32,808 bases of DNA from Methanomassiliicoccus sp. GTDB taxonomy: Archaea > Thermoplasmatota > Thermoplasmata > Methanomassiliicoccales > Methanomassiliicoccaceae. The translations under genes were made by a program, and so were the position numbers. Below, in pieces: positions 1 through 6,019 of this stretch. The DNA lies in NCBI GenBank assembly GCA_033485155.1, contig JAWQJJ010000013.1:1-32808 (forward strand). Reading direction: 5' to 3'. How positions within the stretch are numbered: the stretch's first letter is position 1; each line of letters begins with the position of its first letter. Below the pieces are notes generated by a model. It was not told where the DNA came from. It made no database searches and saw only the letters and a program-made list of their open reading frames with translations.

Positions 1-135
1 CAAACCTATATGAAAAAGTGGTATCGAGCCAGATGAACGACCGTTGAATAATTTCACCTTCCTATAGGTACTATAGAGCTGCATTATTCAAGGAATTATT
101 CTGGGTAGGGAAGAAAGCTCGAAGGGAACAGTTTC

Positions 136-146
136 TTTTAAAAAAT
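136..146 (+). promoter_or_regulatory. TATA box for the TIR-like gene
   Basis: A TTTTAAAAAAT stretch fits an archaeal TATA box. Its centre (about 140) lies 28 nt before an ATT codon at 169 that is in frame with the downstream gene, so transcription would begin at about 167-169. The rest of positions 1-189 is AT-rich with no gene seen. It holds two CTATAG hexamers 3 nt apart near 62-77. Confidence 0.5.
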
Positions 147-189: not shown

Positions 190-1176
190 GTGATTTGCCC
201 TATAGGAGAGAATGGCACAGAGACTAGGCAACATGCTAACCTGACATTGGAATACGTTATAGAGCCAGTGGTCAAGCCTCTTGGTTATGATGTTGAAAGG
301 TCTGATACCTTACCTAATCCTGGCATGATAACTGGTCAAGTCATTGATAAGCTTCTAACTTGCGAGTTGGTGTTAGCGGATTTATCATTCCACAACCCAA
401 ATGTCTTTTATGAACTGGCCATTCGCCATATGACTGATTTGCCCGTCATTCAGATGATAAGTCCTTTTGGAAAAAATATTCCATTTGATATCAGGGATAT
501 GAGAACGGTATATTTTGGAACTGATCTTCCTTCATGTGATGCTGGTAAAAAAGAACTTCAAAAACAAGTAAGTGAAATCATAGGTGCTCCTGGCAAAATA
601 ATCGACAACCCCATAAGACAAGCGTTGAATGGTAGAAAATTCAAGGAGTGGGCAGAGAAGCAGATGAGCGCTGGCACATCAGGCAATCTTGACAAGGCGT
701 TCATGGCACGAATGGTCAGTTTGATGGATGATGTAAAGAATATCAAAGAAACATTAAGTAATAACCCAGTCGGCGCCATAGCTCCGAATCAGGAGATTGA
801 TCGAGCCCAATCGGCTCCAAAGAAAATGAAGGTCGTTCAAACTAACACCTATCATCGACCTGGTTTGAAGATAAATGAACTCGACCTTTCGGGCATGATT
901 GAGACTGTCCAGCTTATGATATCTTCAGATGGGTCGTATAAATCATGGCAGGTGCACTTGACCGGAATCGAATCGGAGGCTTCGAGGATGTTATTCGACT
1001 TAATTAAGGCTACAAAATCGGCTGTAGATCTTGAGGTTGAACAAAGAGATCCTGCATCCAATGACTCCTCGTTTTCTGGACTAACTATTATCAGCAACGT
1101 ACGATCATCGTTGGACACGGCACAATCAAAGGCGATACTTACGGGAACGGGCCCCCTTAAGTTTAAAACTGGTTAG
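190..1176 (+). CDS. TIR-like / nucleoside 2-deoxyribosyltransferase-like protein
   Basis: The N-terminal ~130 residues form a Rossmann-like domain. It has an ICPIGENG strand-loop, a GMITGQVID helix start and the hallmark ADLSFHNPNVFYELAIRH block, seen in TIR-like and nucleoside-deoxyribosyltransferase-like proteins of defence and mobile loci. Such domains often cleave NAD or nucleosides; activity here is inference. Residues ~200-328 form a second domain I do not recognise. The gene is clearly more AT-rich than its neighbours, which suggests transfer. The first ATG/GTG/TTG is the GTG at 190, which falls inside the first beta strand. The frame is open back to 151, and reading from an ATT at 169 would add IEIPTCF and complete the strand, exactly where a leaderless transcript would start. 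The true start may therefore be 169. It converges on the mobile-element operon. Confidence 0.75.
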   Translation: MICPIGENGTETRQHANLTLEYVIEPVVKPLGYDVERSDTLPNPGMITGQVIDKLLTCELVLADLSFHNPNVFYELAIRHMTDLPVIQMISPFGKNIPFDIRDMRTVYFGTDLPSCDAGKKELQKQVSEIIGAPGKIIDNPIRQALNGRKFKEWAEKQMSAGTSGNLDKAFMARMVSLMDDVKNIKETLSNNPVGAIAPNQEIDRAQSAPKKMKVVQTNTYHRPGLKINELDLSGMIETVQLMISSDGSYKSWQVHLTGIESEASRMLFDLIKATKSAVDLEVEQRDPASNDSSFSGLTIISNVRSSLDTAQSKAILTGTGPLKFKTG

Positions 1177-1209: not shown

Positions 1210-1425
1210 TCACTTCCGGCCCATCCGGCCGGACAGTCCTTTCTCCGTTATCTTCCTCATCACCTCCTCTTGTCCGACGCTAAAGAACTCCTCCAGCGCT
1301 AGGTCGGCGAGGTCGGACTTCTTGACCCTTAAAAGCGTGTAAAACTTCTCCAGCCTGACGGCTTGTTTCGGACTGATCCTAATCTGGATGGTAACGACCT
1401 TGCTTTCTTCCGCCTCGGAGATCAC
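1210..1425 (-). CDS. Ribbon-helix-helix-like protein (last gene of element operon)
   Basis: Small 71-aa protein with a short strand (VVTIQIRIS) followed by two helices (PKQAVRLEKFYTLL; KKSDLADLALEEFF), the layout of MetJ/Arc/CopG-type DNA-binding proteins. I chose the GTG at 1425: it overlaps the upstream stop as GTGA, and a GGAGGG ribosome-binding site lies 7 nt before it. A GTG at 1440 in the same frame would put that ribosome-binding site inside the gene. Its neighbour is a second protein of the same type, so the two may form a regulatory or partition pair. Assignment to the ribbon-helix-helix fold is by pattern only. Confidence 0.65.
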   Translation of the reverse strand: MISEAEESKVVTIQIRISPKQAVRLEKFYTLLRVKKSDLADLALEEFFSVGQEEVMRKITEKGLSGRMGRK

Positions 1426-1613
1426 TTCGTATCCCTCCACTGGCGGACCATCGTTACGATCTCGTCCGCTGGTCTTGATAGGAAGAGGTCGACGGCGAGA
1501 GCGACGACTTCAGACTTATGACAACCTTTGATGCGGTCCAGCTTGGTCAAGGCGGCCTCTTGTTCTATCGGCAGTTTAACTTTGACGACCGTTTCTTTCT
1601 TCGCCTCGGCCAT
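1422..1613 (-). CDS. Ribbon-helix-helix-like protein
   Basis: A 63-aa protein with a basic strand (TVVKVKLPIE) and two helices (QEAALTKLDRIKG; HKSEVVALAVDLFL), typical of small ribbon-helix-helix regulators. The start at 1613 has a ribosome-binding site (AAGGAGG) 11 nt upstream, and its A is shared with the TGA of the preceding microgene (TGATG). The frame is open for 36 more codons upstream, but that stretch overlaps the microgene and is unlikely to be coding. The stop overlaps the next start as GTGA. Likely roles are autoregulation, copy control or partition of the element (inference). Confidence 0.7.
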   Translation of the reverse strand: MAEAKKETVVKVKLPIEQEAALTKLDRIKGCHKSEVVALAVDLFLSRPADEIVTMVRQWRDTK

Positions 1614-1729
1614 CACGTCGACCGCCTCCTTTTCCTCAAGCGTTCGGCAACGATAACCACGAGCGATAGAGAGAGCATCACCAGGACAGTGAACACCAAG
1701 GAGAGCCAAACATGCTCCCAAGAGTTCAC
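1613..1729 (-). CDS. 38-aa single-pass membrane microprotein
   Basis: The reading frame encodes a short polar N terminus, one ~20-residue hydrophobic segment rich in Leu, Val and Ser, and a very basic tail (ERLRKRRRST). This is the profile of a single-pass protein with a positive-inside C terminus. GTG start with an AGGAGG site ~8 nt upstream. The start overlaps the previous stop as GTGA, and the stop shares its A with the next ATG (TGATG). No family recognised. The two coupled junctions and the TM profile are the evidence that it is real. Confidence 0.6.
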   Translation of the reverse strand: MNSWEHVWLSLVFTVLVMLSLSLVVIVAERLRKRRRST

Positions 1730-1788
1730 GGCGACCGCCTCCTATCTCCCTCGTTTCCCGGAGCTAAAAGGAGATGGTTTTTGCTCAT
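1726..1788 (-). CDS. 20-codon linking micro-ORF after the recombinase gene
   Basis: A 20-codon frame whose ATG overlaps the recombinase stop as ATGA and whose TGA overlaps the next GTG as GTGA. It therefore bridges the recombinase and the small membrane protein with no untranslated gap. It begins with a hydrophobic patch and ends basic (DRRRSP). It may serve only to carry ribosomes across the junction; a functional peptide is speculative. Confidence 0.35.
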   Translation of the reverse strand: MSKNHLLLAPGNEGDRRRSP

Positions 1789-2366
1789 GCCGAATCACCA
1801 CCCTCGCCGTTCGATGCTGGCTGAGGTAAAAGGGGGGGTGGGGTTCGGACGACTCCTTTTTTCTTGCCCGCATCCGAGCGTTTCTTCCTCGGCTTCTTGT
1901 CCTTGCTTCCCTTCGGCCGGTGACAGAGCTTGCCCTCAGCAAGAGCACGAGCAGTCCCTTCCTTCGATCTCTCCAAGGTAAGTTCCCGCTCGAACTCCGC
2001 TAGTCCGGACAGGAAGCTAAGAACGAACTTACCGAACGCTCCCCCGGTGTGTATGTCCTGCTCGGAGCATTCGAGGACCACATGATACCGGTCCAGTTCC
2101 TCCAGAGTGTTGAACAGGTTCTTGGTCGACCGCATGAACCTGTCGACCCTGGTTACAAAGAGGATGCCGAAGCATCCCGCCTTGGCGTCCAGCATCAACC
2201 GCTGGAAGGCTGGCCTGTTAGGATTCTTTCCGCTGGCGAAGTCAATGTATTCCTTGTAGACCTCCCAACCCCTCGCCTGGGCGATCTGACGAAGCCTGAA
2301 GAGCTGCGTCTCCGGATTCTGCCCCTGGTCGTTGGTCGAGACCCTAGCGTAGAGAGCGACCTTCAC
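1785..2366 (-). CDS. Serine recombinase (resolvase/invertase family)
   Basis: A 193-aa protein with a complete resolvase catalytic domain. ALYARVSTNDQ carries Arg8 and the nucleophile Ser10. VTRVDRFMRS (residues 71-80) carries the conserved Arg/Asp cluster, and a long E helix follows (FVLSFLSGLAEFERELTLERSKEG). After about residue 143 it has a basic stretch (HRPKGSKDKKPRKKRS) and a low-complexity tail. A normal resolvase C-terminal HTH is not evident, so the DNA-binding part is shortened or degenerate. GTG start with a GGGGTGG site 4 nt upstream. It would catalyse integration/excision, inversion or multimer resolution for the element; which one cannot be read from sequence. Confidence 0.9.
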   Translation of the reverse strand: MKVALYARVSTNDQGQNPETQLFRLRQIAQARGWEVYKEYIDFASGKNPNRPAFQRLMLDAKAGCFGILFVTRVDRFMRSTKNLFNTLEELDRYHVVLECSEQDIHTGGAFGKFVLSFLSGLAEFERELTLERSKEGTARALAEGKLCHRPKGSKDKKPRKKRSDAGKKKGVVRTPPPLLPQPASNGEGGDSA

Positions 2367-2680
2367 GCAACCACCCCAGGAACAGTTACAAATACGGATG
2401 CGGTCGGCACGCCCACGTCGGGGTGATAAGAATAGGTCCGATACGTTTGGATTCGAATCTTTTCAGAATGAAGGACTTTGAGACGCCACAGGAAGCCAGC
2501 AGCCACATCTACTACCTGTATCGCAGGGCGGAGCTTGTGAATGATTTGGGCAATGAATATGCCAACACAGCACCTAACATCGCGGCAGTTACCGATGGCG
2601 GAAGAGTGGCCGCTCTCCGAGACATGGTCACGAAGGAAGAGATCGGGACCATCTGGAGTGAATAGGACTGAACGATTCAC
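2363..2680 (-). CDS. 105-aa frame bridging membrane microprotein and recombinase (uncertain)
   Basis: The frame starts at a GTG that overlaps the stop of the gene before it (GTGA at 2680-2677) and ends with a TGA that overlaps the recombinase GTG (GTGA at 2366-2363). A GGGAGGG site precedes the start by ~7 nt. The positional fit matches the rest of the operon. Against it, the protein has no recognisable family and a composition (Cys, His, Ser, Val rich) like an antisense shadow. An 80-aa frame on the other strand covers the same DNA and looks more protein-like. Confidence 0.42.
   Translation of the reverse strand: MNRSVLFTPDGPDLFLRDHVSESGHSSAIGNCRDVRCCVGIFIAQIIHKLRPAIQVVDVAAGFLWRLKVLHSEKIRIQTYRTYSYHPDVGVPTASVFVTVPGVVA
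2423..2665 (+). CDS. Hypothetical 80-aa acidic protein, antisense to the operon (uncertain)
   Basis: Balanced, soluble-looking composition with amphipathic helices (TPQEASSHIYYLYRRAELVNDLG; VAALRDMVTKEEIG) and purine-rich first codon positions. Start is GTG 2423, or ATG 2468 for a 65-aa form. A TATA-like TACAAATACGG at 2386-2396 would place the transcript start near 2420, consistent with a leaderless GTG. It lies wholly opposite the 105-aa minus-strand frame, so one is probably an artefact unless this is a true sense/antisense pair. No family recognised. Confidence 0.48.
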   Translation: MIRIGPIRLDSNLFRMKDFETPQEASSHIYYLYRRAELVNDLGNEYANTAPNIAAVTDGGRVAALRDMVTKEEIGTIWSE

Positions 2681-2832
2681 TGCCCATCCCTCCCCGGCAG
2701 TGGAGGAATGATTACAAACTCGGTCGGAGGGGCCGAGAGCTTTTTCATCCTGTGCCAGATGGCCAGGGCCAGAAAAAGAGGAGAGGCGACGATGACCAAC
2801 AGAATGGAGACAGCTCGAACCGGAGAGATCAT
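2677..2832 (-). CDS. 51-aa single-pass membrane microprotein
   Basis: Starts with ATG overlapping the stop of the large HTH gene (ATGA at 2832-2829). Residues ~5-27 form one hydrophobic helix (VRAVSILLVIVASPLFLALA), followed by WHRMKK and a proline-rich tail (IIPPLPGRDGQ). The layout suggests N-out/C-in by the positive-inside rule. Its stop overlaps the start of the 105-aa frame as GTGA. No family recognised. The second of two single-pass microproteins in this operon. Confidence 0.6.
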   Translation of the reverse strand: MISPVRAVSILLVIVASPLFLALAIWHRMKKLSAPPTEFVIIPPLPGRDGQ

Positions 2833-4025
2833 CCGAACATCACCTCTTCATCCAGCGAAGCGATAGCAGGGTCTCTGGGAGCTTGTGGTTGGCCTTTGCG
2901 TTGCATCTCCAACCTCTGATACTCCATCGTCCTGGCCTGGAACTCGGTGAAGTTATCGAGCGCTTTCCATGTCTCCTTTAACCGGCCGAGAACGCGAAGC
3001 CGTAAGGCGTCCAGCTCTTCCTCTTCCGCTTGGATTCTCGCCTGTATGTCGGCCAGCTCCTCCTCCATCGCGTCGTGGCTTTCCTTAGCGGTCAAGAGGA
3101 AACGAGCGTTGGAGATGTTGGCCTGAGCGAACTCGATCTCCGTGTCTCCCTTAGAATGGTCGATGATGACGCCCGGATGATCGGCGAAGCCAGCAAGGTT
3201 CTTAGGCAGGTGCTTGAGCAGTTCAGGATTGCTGTAGGCAAAGTACACTTGCCCGACCATCTTGCCGACCCTACAGCCCCTAATACGGTCGAACTTCCAG
3301 CCGCCATGACGCTCAAGGAAGTCCAGCACGCCGAACACTTCCTTATCGAAGAAGTGAACAGGGTAGTCCTTCCCGGCGTCGATGTCAGCGGCCGTAAGAT
3401 GAATGCGAGGCGGGTATACGTGCAGATTACGCAGGTTCGGCGTGATCCTGAGCTGAAGTACAACGGAGTAATCCCATCCAGGTATCCTAAGCTCGGTCGT
3501 CCATCTCCAATTGTTATGGTACCCCTCCTCGCCCCCCAGGTCGCACGGCTCTACAAACAGGGGAATTTCGATGGCGTCCTTCCCCGGCTCGGCAACGGAG
3601 ATCACTTTCTGCTCACCGAGCTTGGTGATAGGAAAGACGATATGCCCATGCATATGCGCTTCTAGCGTTTCGATGTCATACTGTTCGAGACGAATAGACG
3701 CCGGAGGAGAGGTTGAGGCGATCGCAGAAGGCATGACAGGGGGTCTGTCAACCGGTTGAGGACTAGGTTGAGCCCCTGAGCCAGTATCCTCTTCCTCGGC
3801 AACTTTCGCCGAGATCGGCCTTGCCTCCTCAAAGAACCTTGCTTTCGGCCCCCGTTCATACAAACCGGTGCCGTCGATCGGCCTCAAAATCTTCTCATCG
3901 AGGAGCTTATTCTTTTGTCTTCTTACCGCTTCCTCGGAGATATCCAGTATCCGAGCGACGTCTGCCTGTATATGCCCCTCAACGAACAGCTCATAAATTT
4001 GGCGTCGGCGGGGGGTGGTTTTCAC
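2829..4025 (-). CDS. Large HTH protein, possible replication initiator or regulator of the element
   Basis: 398 aa. Residues ~5-65 form a helix-turn-helix/winged-helix domain (RQIYELFVEGHIQADVARIL, then SEEAVRRQKNKLLDEKI and a wing-like IDGTGLYERG). A proline/Ser linker (~70-110) leads to a mixed alpha/beta domain (~115-310). Residues ~315-365 are a Glu-rich coiled coil (EEELADIQARIQAEEEELDALR). It is the largest protein of the operon and lies directly downstream of the GGTTGAG repeats, three of which fall inside its own 5' half. This arrangement recalls iteron-binding replication proteins, but no Rep catalytic motif is visible, so a repressor or partition role is equally possible. GTG start; a GGTGA-type site lies ~15 nt upstream. 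Confidence 0.72.
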   Translation of the reverse strand: MKTTPRRRQIYELFVEGHIQADVARILDISEEAVRRQKNKLLDEKILRPIDGTGLYERGPKARFFEEARPISAKVAEEEDTGSGAQPSPQPVDRPPVMPSAIASTSPPASIRLEQYDIETLEAHMHGHIVFPITKLGEQKVISVAEPGKDAIEIPLFVEPCDLGGEEGYHNNWRWTTELRIPGWDYSVVLQLRITPNLRNLHVYPPRIHLTAADIDAGKDYPVHFFDKEVFGVLDFLERHGGWKFDRIRGCRVGKMVGQVYFAYSNPELLKHLPKNLAGFADHPGVIIDHSKGDTEIEFAQANISNARFLLTAKESHDAMEEELADIQARIQAEEEELDALRLRVLGRLKETWKALDNFTEFQARTMEYQRLEMQRKGQPQAPRDPAIASLDEEVMFG

Positions 4026-4035
4026 GGTGATGATG

Positions 4036-4242
4036 CTAATTCACCCCCCGACCCTCAACGGCTTCCTCAAGGGGTTGAGTTGAGGGTTGAGCCGTGAAAA
4101 AAAGAGGTTGAGTTTGCTGGCTCATCAAAATGACAGCCTTTTCGGAGGTTGAGCCGTGTGGTTGAGTGTCATGGTTGAGACCATGACGGCCAGCGTAGTT
4201 GAGAATAGGTTGAGACTTGGTTGAGACGAGGTTGAGCCTCAT
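4036..4242 (-). CDS. 68-aa repeat-encoded protein across the iteron array
   Basis: The ATG overlaps the preceding stop (ATGA at 4242-4239) and has a GGGAGGG site ~7 nt upstream, so translation is plausible. The product is built largely from the translated repeats, giving recurring TQP/SQP/STQP units and no clear fold. It ends 10 nt before the large HTH gene. Either a real Gln/Pro-rich peptide or a frame kept open so ribosomes can cross the repeats to the HTH gene. Confidence 0.4.
   Translation of the reverse strand: MRLNLVSTKSQPILNYAGRHGLNHDTQPHGSTSEKAVILMSQQTQPLFFTAQPSTQPLEEAVEGRGVN
4073..4236 (+). repeat. Iteron-like array of GGTTGAG heptamers
   Basis: Exact GGTTGAG copies begin at 4073, 4085, 4106, 4147, 4160, 4173, 4208, 4219 and 4230, with AGTTGAG variants at 4078 and 4197. 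The last four units (4197, 4208, 4219, 4230) have an exact 11-bp period, close to one helical turn. Two more intervals are 13 bp. Three further copies (3711, 3754, 3766) lie in the downstream HTH gene. An opposed CCCTCAAC at about 4052 pairs with the first units. Such arrays are typical of iteron origins or operators bound by the adjacent initiator; function here is inferred. Confidence 0.8.
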
Positions 4243-4415
4243 TCCCATCCCTCCCGGTGAAAGCCTTGACGAATGAGCCTAGCAGCGTACGCCCGAGGAG
4301 GCCATAGCGGCCGGTCTTCTCTGACCACTCGGCCGTTAGGCTCGGTCCAGGTGGCCACGTCCTTACCCAGCTTTACCTGGGTGCCGTCCGAGTGCGTGAG
4401 GACGATATCCTTCAT
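4239..4415 (-). CDS. 58-aa hypothetical protein of the element
   Basis: The ATG overlaps the upstream stop (ATGA at 4415-4412) and the TGA overlaps the next ATG (ATGA at 4242-4239). The N-terminal half has a strand pattern (KDIVLTHSDGTQVKLGKDVA); the C-terminal half is Arg/Trp-rich (DRPLWPPRAYAARLIRQG), suggesting a small nucleic-acid- or protein-binding domain. No family recognised. Double coupling and clean codon use support it as a gene. Confidence 0.6.
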   Translation of the reverse strand: MKDIVLTHSDGTQVKLGKDVATWTEPNGRVVREDRPLWPPRAYAARLIRQGFHREGWE

Positions 4416-4888
4416 TCCTTCGCCTCCGCTATTGCGGCTCTGACGGTCTCAGGCGTGAGCAAGTAGGCAACAGAACCGTTGAGAGTCCCGGCACGACGGA
4501 CGAACGGACAACAGCGCACGATCTGGAGCGCACCCCTCCGTTCAAAATATCTTGAATGTTCGTCCCGAACTTGTCTGAAGACATCGACGGCGGTGAACTT
4601 GCTCAGCCGTATGCAAGCATCGAGGAGTAGCCTCTGTTTGAGGTCGAGGTCATCGAACATTGCTGGTCTCTGGACCTTCGGCTTGTGGTCCAAAAGAGCC
4701 TCGGCTTCAATGTTCTTTCGAGAGAGCATCACCAGGAAGTTCACCACCTTCCCGATCTCCATCGCATCCAAGCCCTCGCGCCTCAGGCTGTTGAAGACCT
4801 CCATCGCCTCCTGATAACAGGGGTCTTTCATGGGGTCCTTGTTGAGCGAGGGGAAGGCTACTGGCATTTCGCTAATGGACTCGTCCAT
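4412..4888 (-). CDS. Hypothetical 158-aa protein of the element
   Basis: Mostly helical soluble protein. Residues ~20-65 are helical (PCYQEAMEVFNSLRREGLDAMEIGKVV). A central segment (LDLKQRLLLDACIRLSKFTAVDVFRQV) resembles the first helices of a winged-helix domain, and the C terminus could supply the wing (GSVAYLLTPETVRAAIAEA). ATG 4888 is chosen because its A is also the last base of the upstream TGA (TGATG); a TTG one codon earlier is possible. No family recognised; a DNA-binding role is inference. Confidence 0.68.
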   Translation of the reverse strand: MDESISEMPVAFPSLNKDPMKDPCYQEAMEVFNSLRREGLDAMEIGKVVNFLVMLSRKNIEAEALLDHKPKVQRPAMFDDLDLKQRLLLDACIRLSKFTAVDVFRQVRDEHSRYFERRGALQIVRCCPFVRRAGTLNGSVAYLLTPETVRAAIAEAKE

Positions 4889-5004
4889 CAAGCATCACGC
4901 CCCTTGAACCGACGCTGGACGCCTCGTATCAGGAGTCTCATAGGTAAGACAAAAAAGAGTTCAAACCGCCACACGATCTTGTTGAGGGAGTGAGCGGTCA
5001 TCAT
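4888..5004 (-). CDS. 38-aa amphipathic basic microprotein
   Basis: Starts with a tandem ATG ATG, the first overlapping the upstream stop as ATGA (5004-5001), and ends in TGATG with the next gene. The middle is hydrophobic and aromatic (IVWRFELFFVLPMRLLI) and the tail strongly basic (RGVQRRFKGRDA). It could be a membrane-associated or DNA/RNA-binding peptide. Supported mainly by its two coupled junctions; no family recognised. Confidence 0.5.
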   Translation of the reverse strand: MMTAHSLNKIVWRFELFFVLPMRLLIRGVQRRFKGRDA

Positions 5005-5243
5005 TCATCCTCCGAAGGATTGAACACCTGGCCGTCCGGCCTCCGGATGAAGTCCGGGCAGGGAACTTTCTTCTCCTCCCGACCGGCGAACCGTCTCTTC
5101 GTGCATCGGTCCCAATGCCCGTTGTAACGAGAGCAATGCAGCTTCCTCGCCTCGTCGTGACAGAAAGCGCAATGCATCTTCCGTATGCGGACCTTGTGAA
5201 CGCCTACCGCCTCGATAACGCTGGCCAGCTTGGAGAGCTTCAA
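5001..5243 (-). CDS. Small Cys/His-rich protein, probable zinc finger
   Basis: About 80 aa. Two Cys pairs with His residues (MHCAFCHDEARKLHCSRYNGHWDRC) suggest one treble-clef or zinc-ribbon site, with a fifth Cys (KVPCPDFI) further on. I prefer TTG 5243: it overlaps the upstream stop as TTGA and lies 5-6 nt after a GGAGGTG site. A GTG at 5252 overlaps that ribosome-binding site. Probably a DNA/RNA-binding or protein-interaction module of the element. Confidence 0.65.
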   Translation of the reverse strand: MKLSKLASVIEAVGVHKVRIRKMHCAFCHDEARKLHCSRYNGHWDRCTKRRFAGREEKKVPCPDFIRRPDGQVFNPSEDE

Positions 5244-5464
5244 ATCGAACACCTCCCCCGGCCTTCGAGCCTTGCCCGCTCGATGATCTCCCGCTGGTGT
5301 GGTGGAAGCTCACAGAACTTGAGGCTCTTCTTGGTCGGATTGGCTTGGTACTCTCTCAGCGATTCCTCGCCCTCGTGTTCAAGGATGAAGAGTTCAAGCG
5401 CGATCTGGTCCTCTTCCGCTTCGGTCCTCGTTGGAACAGGTATCGAGACAGGAGGACGAGCCAT
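5240..5464 (-). CDS. Hypothetical acidic protein; start may be an ATA at 5512
   Basis: A 74-aa product from ATG 5464, rich in Glu and helix formers (TRTEAEEDQIALELFILEHEGEESLREYQ), ending in HQREIIERARLEGRGRC. No family recognised. ATG 5464 has no ribosome-binding site. The frame is open upstream to an ATA at 5512 that sits 5 nt after a perfect AGGAGGTG (5518-5525) and overlaps the previous stop as ATAA, giving a 90-aa form. In this operon the expected junction would be ATGA, so the start may have mutated or AUA may be used. Confidence 0.6.
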   Translation of the reverse strand: MARPPVSIPVPTRTEAEEDQIALELFILEHEGEESLREYQANPTKKSLKFCELPPHQREIIERARLEGRGRCSI

Positions 5465-5508
5465 CGCTTCAAGGCGAAGGTATGCTTCGGTGCAAGCTGA
5501 GGTGTCGG

Positions 5509-5760
5509 TTATACTAACACCTCCTGTCGTGTGCTCTTCGGCCTACAATGACCGTTCTCGGACCTCGGCCGCATCTTCCCTAGCGACCGGCCGTCAACGA
5601 AGCCGGTAGAGGCGGCAAAGCGCTTGCAGGGCGGGCAAGAATCGCAACTGTCGCCTTTACAGCGCTTCGTCATCTCCTTGCACGCTTCGATCTCCTTGCC
5701 GTCGCCGTCTACGTATTGACAGCCCTCGCAACAATCGTTGAAGGGGATTTCCTCGCTCAA
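5509..5760 (-). CDS. Cys-rich 83-aa protein
   Basis: Nine Cys in the first half (DCCEGCQYVDG, EACKEM, KRCKGDSCDSCPPCKRF) imply one or two bound zinc ions or an Fe-S site; the C terminus is basic. Starts with TTG overlapping the stop of the first operon gene (TTGA at 5760-5757) after a purine-rich AAGGGGG site. It ends in TAA, unlike the TGA stops nearby. No family recognised. Confidence 0.65.
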   Translation of the reverse strand: MSEEIPFNDCCEGCQYVDGDGKEIEACKEMTKRCKGDSCDSCPPCKRFAASTGFVDGRSLGKMRPRSENGHCRPKSTRQEVLV

Positions 5761-5897
5761 ATGGCCGCCCCCTTGGTCTTAAGAACATGGTTGGAGGCAA
5801 CCCATTTCCGGTTGGATTCAATGAGGGTTTCTAGGTTTTTTACAAAGGCTTGGTTGGGCCAGTTTGGGCAGACACCCTCTAATCCCAGTGCCCCCAC
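5757..5897 (-). CDS. 46-aa leading gene of the element operon
   Basis: A frame from GTG 5897 to TGA 5757 encodes GVCPNWPNQAFVKNLETLIE followed by a Lys/Asn-rich tail (NRKWVASNHVLKTKGAAI). AGGGG lies 5 nt before the GTG. Its TGA overlaps the next gene's TTG. A TATA-like CAATTATTAG at 5961-5970 would give a leader carrying the perfect hairpin at 5909-5932. The frame is open further upstream through the hairpin but lacks a better start. No family recognised. Confidence 0.48.
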   Translation of the reverse strand: MGALGLEGVCPNWPNQAFVKNLETLIESNRKWVASNHVLKTKGAAI

Positions 5898-5908
5898 TCC
5901 TTCCCCTG

Positions 5909-5932
5909 GCTCACGGCAGTATTGCCGTGAGC
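5909..5932. repeat. Perfect inverted repeat at the element's right edge
   Basis: Ten-bp arms (GCTCACGGCA / TGCCGTGAGC) with a GTAT loop. On the minus strand it lies in the probable leader of the first operon gene. On the plus strand it is followed by T-rich sequence. It could be a leader hairpin, a terminator, or a binding/crossover site for the serine recombinase; the sequence alone does not decide. Confidence 0.7.
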
Positions 5933-6019
5933 ACTTTTGTACATTTTTGACTATCTAGCTCTAATAATTGGGTAACAATGTGATTAGGAGAAAGTGATCA
6001 TCCATTATGTGGACCGTCC

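Follow-up and report, generated by a model that had tools for sequence, protein, structure and literature searches.

A backbone operon of overlapping genes in a likely family of integrative, plasmid-like elements of Methanomassiliicoccus

The sequence considered here, referred to as the window, is the whole of contig 13 (JAWQJJ010000013.1, 32,808 nucleotides) of a 2.81-Mb Methanomassiliicoccus sp. genome; judged by a host gene, its nearest named relatives are Methanomassiliicoccus MAGs, at 82% and 71% identity. Near its start, a chain of open frames (f1 to f16) runs along the minus strand from position 5897 to 1210. A 46-codon frame (f1, 5757..5897) is followed by an 83-residue Cys-rich protein (f2, 5509..5760), a protein of about 90 residues (f3, 5240..5512), an 80-residue Cys/His-rich, zinc-binding-like protein (f4, 5001..5243), a 38-residue microprotein with a hydrophobic segment and a basic tail (f5, 4888..5004), a 159-residue protein with no family assigned (f6, 4412..4891) and a 58-residue microprotein (f7, 4239..4415). 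Next come an iteron array that coincides with open frame f8 (4036..4242) and a 398-residue protein (f9, 2829..4025) comprising a winged helix-turn-helix (HTH)-like N-terminus, a variable linker and a coiled coil, with a second iteron cluster inside its gene (3711..3772). The chain continues with a 51-residue microprotein bearing a single transmembrane (TM) segment and a Pro-rich tail (f10, 2677..2832), a 105-codon frame (f11, 2363..2680), a 193-residue serine recombinase (f12, 1785..2366), a 20-codon frame (f13, 1726..1788), a 38-residue single-TM microprotein ending in an RKRRRST tail (f14, 1613..1729), and two ribbon-helix-helix (RHH)-like paralogues of 64 and 71 residues (f15, 1422..1616; f16, 1210..1425). 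An earlier note, made from the letters of this DNA, had listed a chain of stops and starts here; all are present, and 14 of the 15 junctions from f1-f2 to f15-f16 overlap by 4 nt or less, f8/f9 being a 10-nt gap. Two of the 4-nt junctions can also be read as a 1-nt TGATG. We consider it likely that the chain forms the backbone operon shared by a family of Methanomassiliicoccus elements that are integrative and plasmid-like, in which f9, f12, f15, f16 and the microproteins can be given the putative functions set out below.

A search of the window's whole assembly revealed about eight copies of the element, whole or decayed, inside this single genome. Copies are labelled by their contigs (C1, C2, C6, C7, C8, C9 and C10, with C2b denoting one C2 copy and the window being W, or C13); L numbers are loci fetched and G numbers genomes compared. 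The same gene order is found on C9 and C8, related copies occur on C2 and C10, and remnants remain on C2 (at 124 kb), C6, C7 and C1. The C9 copy is close to the window (97% identity in f6 and 95% in f9), the C8 copy more distant (64% in f6). As depicted by a per-gene profile map, C9 has the complete order f1-f2-f3-f4-f5-f6-f7-iterons-f9-f10-f12-f14-f15-f16. C8 carries a Dam methylase between f5 and f6. The C2 copy is reshuffled and has a Dcm-type methylase; in it f5 directly precedes the recombinase and f10 occupies the position of f14. The C10 copy is partly degraded, with a PAPS reductase among its exchanged cassettes. Genes and cargo are swapped as cassettes at three points, namely the f5/f6 junction, the stretch from f10 to f12 and the position following f16, with the 4-nt overlaps mostly kept. 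Recombinase relatives are also found elsewhere in the same genome. A profile of f2, which is present in five copies plus remnants, matches eight places in the window's genome and, weakly, two in the same genus, with no further match among 147 genomes of the order. The operon proteins have no match in Pfam, PHROGs or NCBIfam beyond the resolvase domain and weak HTH and RHH matches. Scans of IMG/VR with f4, f2, f9 and C2 proteins, and of plasmid and phage collections with f9, found no relative; a GTDB scan with f4 and an Rfam search gave nothing of use.

Copies within one genome allow the frames to be tested for selection. The ratio of non-synonymous to synonymous substitution rates (Ka/Ks) was calculated between element copies by the Nei-Gojobori method, with significance from Fisher tests. 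Among the smallest frames, values are 0.07-0.14 for f5 (p about 2e-4), 0.18 for f7 (window versus C9, p = 1e-4), 0.15-0.18 for f10 (p = 1e-6) and, more weakly, 0.24-0.33 for f14 (p 0.003 to 0.04). Every value for f2-f4, f6, f9, f15 and f16 lies below 0.3 (f2, 0.10-0.22; f3, 0.09-0.10; f4, 0.12-0.28; f6, 0.04-0.14). Frames f5 (38 residues), f7 (58), f10 (51) and f14 (38) are therefore real protein-coding genes under purifying selection, and would be expressed as proteins. The earlier note had held that relatives with broken small frames beside intact recombinase and HTH genes would speak against its proposal; the opposite is seen, f5, f10 and f14 being intact in the near copies C9 and C8, and f7 in C9. 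Both f10 and f14 are probably membrane-anchored. That all four microproteins share a membrane-anchoring or surface role is our best guess, held with low confidence and prompted by the C2 copy, where f10 takes the place of f14 before the RHH gene.

Not all of the chain withstands this scrutiny, and of the microproteins proposed earlier the 20-codon f13 and the 46-codon f1 fall away. Frame f13 is absent in C9 and is not matched in the remaining copies. As for f1, a conserved small CxxC protein occupies this place in C9, C2, C10 and, more weakly, C8; the window's f1 is not homologous to it and is unsupported as a gene. Beside it, window positions 5878-5960 are 80% identical to sequence on C10 (L026 11267-11349) that lies behind a tyrosine integrase adjoining a tRNA, apparently left over from another integrated element; the left edge of the window copy looks recombinant, and probably is. 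Two longer frames of the proposed chain are likewise unsupported as genes. The 105-codon f11 has no counterpart in other copies and lies in a variable slot, which holds an unrelated 88-residue open frame in C9 and is empty in C8. Opposite f11, an 80-codon frame on the plus strand (2423-2665) is protein-like and as plausible as f11; no relative of either was seen in the fetched loci. The 68-codon f8 shows 2 synonymous and 9 non-synonymous changes, with a Ks of 0.04 as compared with 0.4 and 0.6 in its neighbours, and its substitutions are not concentrated at third positions. It was rejected as a protein; f8 is an iteron array conserved as DNA.

The extent of the element is best seen in C9, a 12.1-kb insert whose empty site is present in L077, syntenic on both sides, with the left flank also found in L076. 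At this site G004 keeps synteny without a break as far as the 5' side of the gene for a tRNA-Arg; in G000 synteny picks up again 12.1 kb further on. An 11-bp direct repeat, TAATTCTTTTT, flanks the insert, whose right end carries a tyrosine recombinase gene (L022 16466-17341; Phage_integrase, PF00589, E = 2.4e-8). Its cargo is an N6/N4 methylase and a DndB-like protein. In G003, the site of the C9 insertion is occupied by a foreign stretch with a similar left end. Integration of the family would be the work of a tyrosine recombinase encoded at the end opposite the operon, the gene, repeat and empty site being those of C9. The TAATTCTTTTT core (L022 5310-5340 and 17380-17405) sits at the expected position of the transcription factor B recognition element and TATA box of the tRNA-Arg gene, and integration may for this reason target the tRNA promoter and rebuild it. 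On C2, two genes that are adjacent in G005 and G003 are split by a 35.7-kb composite island. The right half of the window copy is most likely missing, because the contig starts inside a conserved non-coding site (see below). The left ends of C9, C10 and C2b do sit immediately upstream of divergent genes; use of such a host promoter by every copy, considered at first, was not retained.

The earlier note had described an undescribed, compact archaeal integrative plasmid. A family with iterons, RHH-like proteins, Cys-rich proteins and microproteins is borne out, but the element is larger than 4.7 kb (C9 being 12.1 kb) and has fewer microproteins, and the operon's serine recombinase is probably not its integrase, which in C9 is a tyrosine recombinase. 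Archaeal integrative plasmids with cargo are already known, e.g. the pT26-2 family (PMC6972569; PMC8371274). Like these, the present elements use a tyrosine recombinase to integrate next to a tRNA, carry cargo that varies, and occur as multiple, accreting copies in a single chromosome. Unlike these, they insert (in C9) upstream of tRNA-Arg rather than in its 3' end and keep a serine recombinase inside the backbone operon, while their backbone proteins f2-f7, f9 and f10 fall outside every described family in the searched libraries. The family itself, its backbone proteins and the split iteron layout were not found in the libraries or literature searched.

The iterons center on f9. The word CTCAACC occurs in 12 exact copies in the window, nine upstream of f9 (about 4236 to 4073) and three inside it (at +253, +265 and +308 from the GTG), and again in 12 copies in C9, as compared with dinucleotide-shuffle maxima of 4 and 3, respectively. 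Against such shuffles, iterons are significant in W, C9, C8, C2b, G011 and G060, although the word itself changes: GTTCGGA in C8, GTCAACC in C2b, AGTAAAGA in G011 (another genus) and GTTCGGAC in G060. The steps are 11-13 bp, and the phased direct repeats adjoin the f9 gene. C2b and G011 differ in word, yet their repeats take equal positions (-118, -107, -94, -58 and about -45). The internal cluster maps to the variable linker of the alignment, at about codons 85 to 105. Full-length relatives of f9 are confined to this order among 400 genomes of the class, and are often followed by a serine recombinase or lie near a tyrosine integrase. Distant alignment scans with f9 found no conserved stretch. 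The GTG start of f9 is GTC in C9, so that translation probably begins in both the window and C9 at an ATC or ATT just upstream. Most members of the family end in (G/E)(V/G)M(F/Y) plus one residue (alignment A1), a motif that suggests a binding peptide.

Most relatives of f9 carry an iteron word of their own, both upstream of the gene and within it, and the reading that fits f9 best is therefore a candidate iteron-binding replication initiator or regulator. The protein would bind its upstream and in-gene iterons to start and limit replication or to regulate itself, as suggested by the co-variation of the iterons and the winged-HTH-like N-terminus; a low-confidence model gives a winged-helix-like N-terminus and a long C-terminal helix. 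Iteron plasmid replicons (PMC4980987) likewise have phased direct repeats directly upstream of the gene for a putative DNA-binding protein, with a repeat word that differs with each protein. Those known systems are bacterial, however, whereas f9 lacks similarity to a Rep family and has a second repeat cluster within its own coding sequence. Alternatively, f9 may be only a transcriptional autoregulator or immunity repressor, with the repeats as operators and replication occurring only with the chromosome between transfers. The placement of repeats around the f9 start and inside the gene fits this, as do the HTH matches of f9, which are to regulators. Up to 12 repeats phased at 11-13 bp, extending over more than 500 bp with spacing conserved across genera, fit it less well, as does the conservation across the order of f9 parts beyond the HTH. 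Long phased repeat arrays with conserved spacing are typical of iteron origins. We regard the autoregulator as unlikely, if the strongest of the alternatives to the integrative element. A bolder form of the initiator reading, which we advance tentatively and somewhat short of even confidence, would make f9 a new, order-restricted archaeal initiator class whose origin is split around and into its gene, with a word that changes with the protein, AUA (f3) and possibly AUC (f9) starts, and membrane microproteins shuffled as overlap-coupled cassettes.

The recombinase f12 contains a complete catalytic domain (PF00239, E = 3.8e-37, residues 3-146), including the motifs YARVST and DRFMRS with the nucleophile Ser and conserved Arg. 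It shares this domain with the resolvase/invertase group (gamma-delta resolvase, 1gdt) but differs at the C-terminal DNA-binding domain: the window protein lacks the HTH and ends in a basic tail, and the C8 homologue is shortened. The C9 homologue, at 249 residues, extends further at its C-terminus and includes an HTH-like stretch there. Recombinases are swapped between copies, with 35-41% identity; window versus C8 gives a Ka/Ks of 0.49 at 43%. As an integrase f12 was rejected: given the tyrosine integrase at the far end of C9, f12 is probably not one, and would resolve multimers or invert DNA rather than integrate the element.

For f15 and f16 the profile comparison with solved CopG gives no more than a weak similarity (E = 0.006 to 1b01), f15 also matching a phrog_876 repressor (E = 2.5e-4) and f16 being a paralogue of f15. 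They would be RHH regulators, perhaps of copy number or partition, and possibly act at a downstream TTGAATAA site. This conserved non-coding site of about 250 bp (minus strand, window 1-144, where the contig start cuts it; L022 10188-10440) occurs in six places in the genome. It carries repeated, inverted TTGAATAA words at conserved spacing, with GAATAA found 4 to 5 times versus 0.35 to 0.5 expected in four of the five places tested, and is a candidate target for the RHH proteins or the serine recombinase. The terminal repeat was rejected as the end of the element, C9 running 7 kb beyond it to the integrase. Between f16 and this repeat, the window has a TIR-like effector cargo gene on the plus strand (190..1176, 328 residues) with low GC content at third codon positions (PADLOC PDLC00733, E = 1.3e-6). 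The slot after f16 holds a Schlafen/AlbA_2 gene in C8 and none in C9.

C2 (407-419 kb; L041 7244-14063, L078 103-4893) contains a 12-kb block of membrane, secreted and immunoglobulin-repeat proteins, one AAA ATPase among them, bordered by an f10-f16 remnant on one side and by the terminal site on the other. This block is a possible virus or surface-structure module. Under an alternative reading, the family would consist of proviruses or virus satellites, with the operon as their early region and a structural module that most copies have lost and this C2 block has kept. The position of the block beside the remnant is in keeping with this, as are its weak tape-measure and lysin-like PHROG matches and the recurrence of one of its proteins (492 residues) in 16 of 147 genomes of the order. 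The small TM proteins of the operon also recall the small TM minor virion proteins that archaeal viruses have. Yet no capsid, portal or terminase was found among the operon proteins tested or in the C2 module, the scans made of IMG/VR and a phage collection returned no relative, and the module is missing from four of the five better-preserved copies, as far as their contigs can be inspected. A viral origin is thus doubtful, and slightly more so than the autoregulator. Adjacent to this block (C2, 419-428 kb; L078 5755-9941, L024 3304-5673), genes carried as cargo in this archaeal mobile island resemble, judged by eye from the sequence, McrC, alanine racemase and D-Ala-D-Ala ligase.

The overlaps themselves deserve caution. 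A lax overlap test, which accepts ATG, GTG or TTG and so counts three of the four NTGA stops as a 'start', was applied to co-directional chromosomal pairs taken from this genome and from relatives, and 17 of 36 passed; the window's 14 of 15 is an excess over this (Fisher p = 0.002). Since most NTGA stops supply a start, and since nearly half of chromosomal pairs pass, the overlaps alone are weak evidence and prove little, which is why evidence from relatives was required. The f2/f3 junction (ATAA, 5512) needs an ATA start. No ATG, GTG or TTG is found at this overlap; the window, C9 and C8, which are the closest copies, all retain the ATA, with GGAGGTG 5 nt upstream, and the two changes between the window and C8 ahead of the first ATG are both synonymous. 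An ATA start for f3 is thus plausible, if non-canonical, with the ATG at 5464 as an alternative. A single long polycistronic message would begin at the left end of the element, and termination-reinitiation at the 4-nt stop/start overlaps would probably translate the chain. Termination-reinitiation is known for archaea (PMC6728339), and the window shares with such gene pairs ATGA-type 4-nt overlaps, as a rule accompanied by an internal Shine-Dalgarno site. The window differs from those pairs in having two runs of seven overlapped junctions flanking the f9 start and in including the ATAA overlap with its ATA start; coupling is inferred here from sequence. That the segment is an ordinary compact operon, its overlapping starts free by-products of TGA stops and its small frames spurious, is very improbable: it accords with the chromosomal pairs and holds for f1, f8, f11 and f13, but for f5, f7 and f10 it no longer stands, barring an artefact in the Ka/Ks signal, given the purifying selection on these (and on f14) and the recurrence of f5 and f10 in a different gene order in C2.

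Several points weigh against the integrative, plasmid-like element and its functional model. The window contig ends within the element, so no integrase of its own can be shown, and no free or circular form of the element was seen. Searches of f9 against Pfam, PHROG, NCBIfam, PDB, plasmid and phage collections yielded a generic HTH only and no significant match to any known replication initiator, the single-sequence fold of f9 is poor (a predicted local distance difference test score, pLDDT, of 45), and iterons are weak in C10 and G054. Ka/Ks compares copies in one genome, where gene conversion could bias the values, and overlap is the only basis for the presumed translational coupling.

The order Methanomassiliicoccales includes gut methanogens and, to our knowledge, lacks genetic tools; no such element family for it was found in the literature searched. 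The f8 frame, a 'microprotein' of the chain that is in fact repeat DNA, serves as a caution for chain-based calling of small genes; the natural copies, on the other hand, let selection tests separate proteins of 38-58 codons from spurious frames. The family offers a starting point for a vector, since it provides a candidate origin (f9 and its iterons), an integrase whose site is known and about eight naturally occurring copies.

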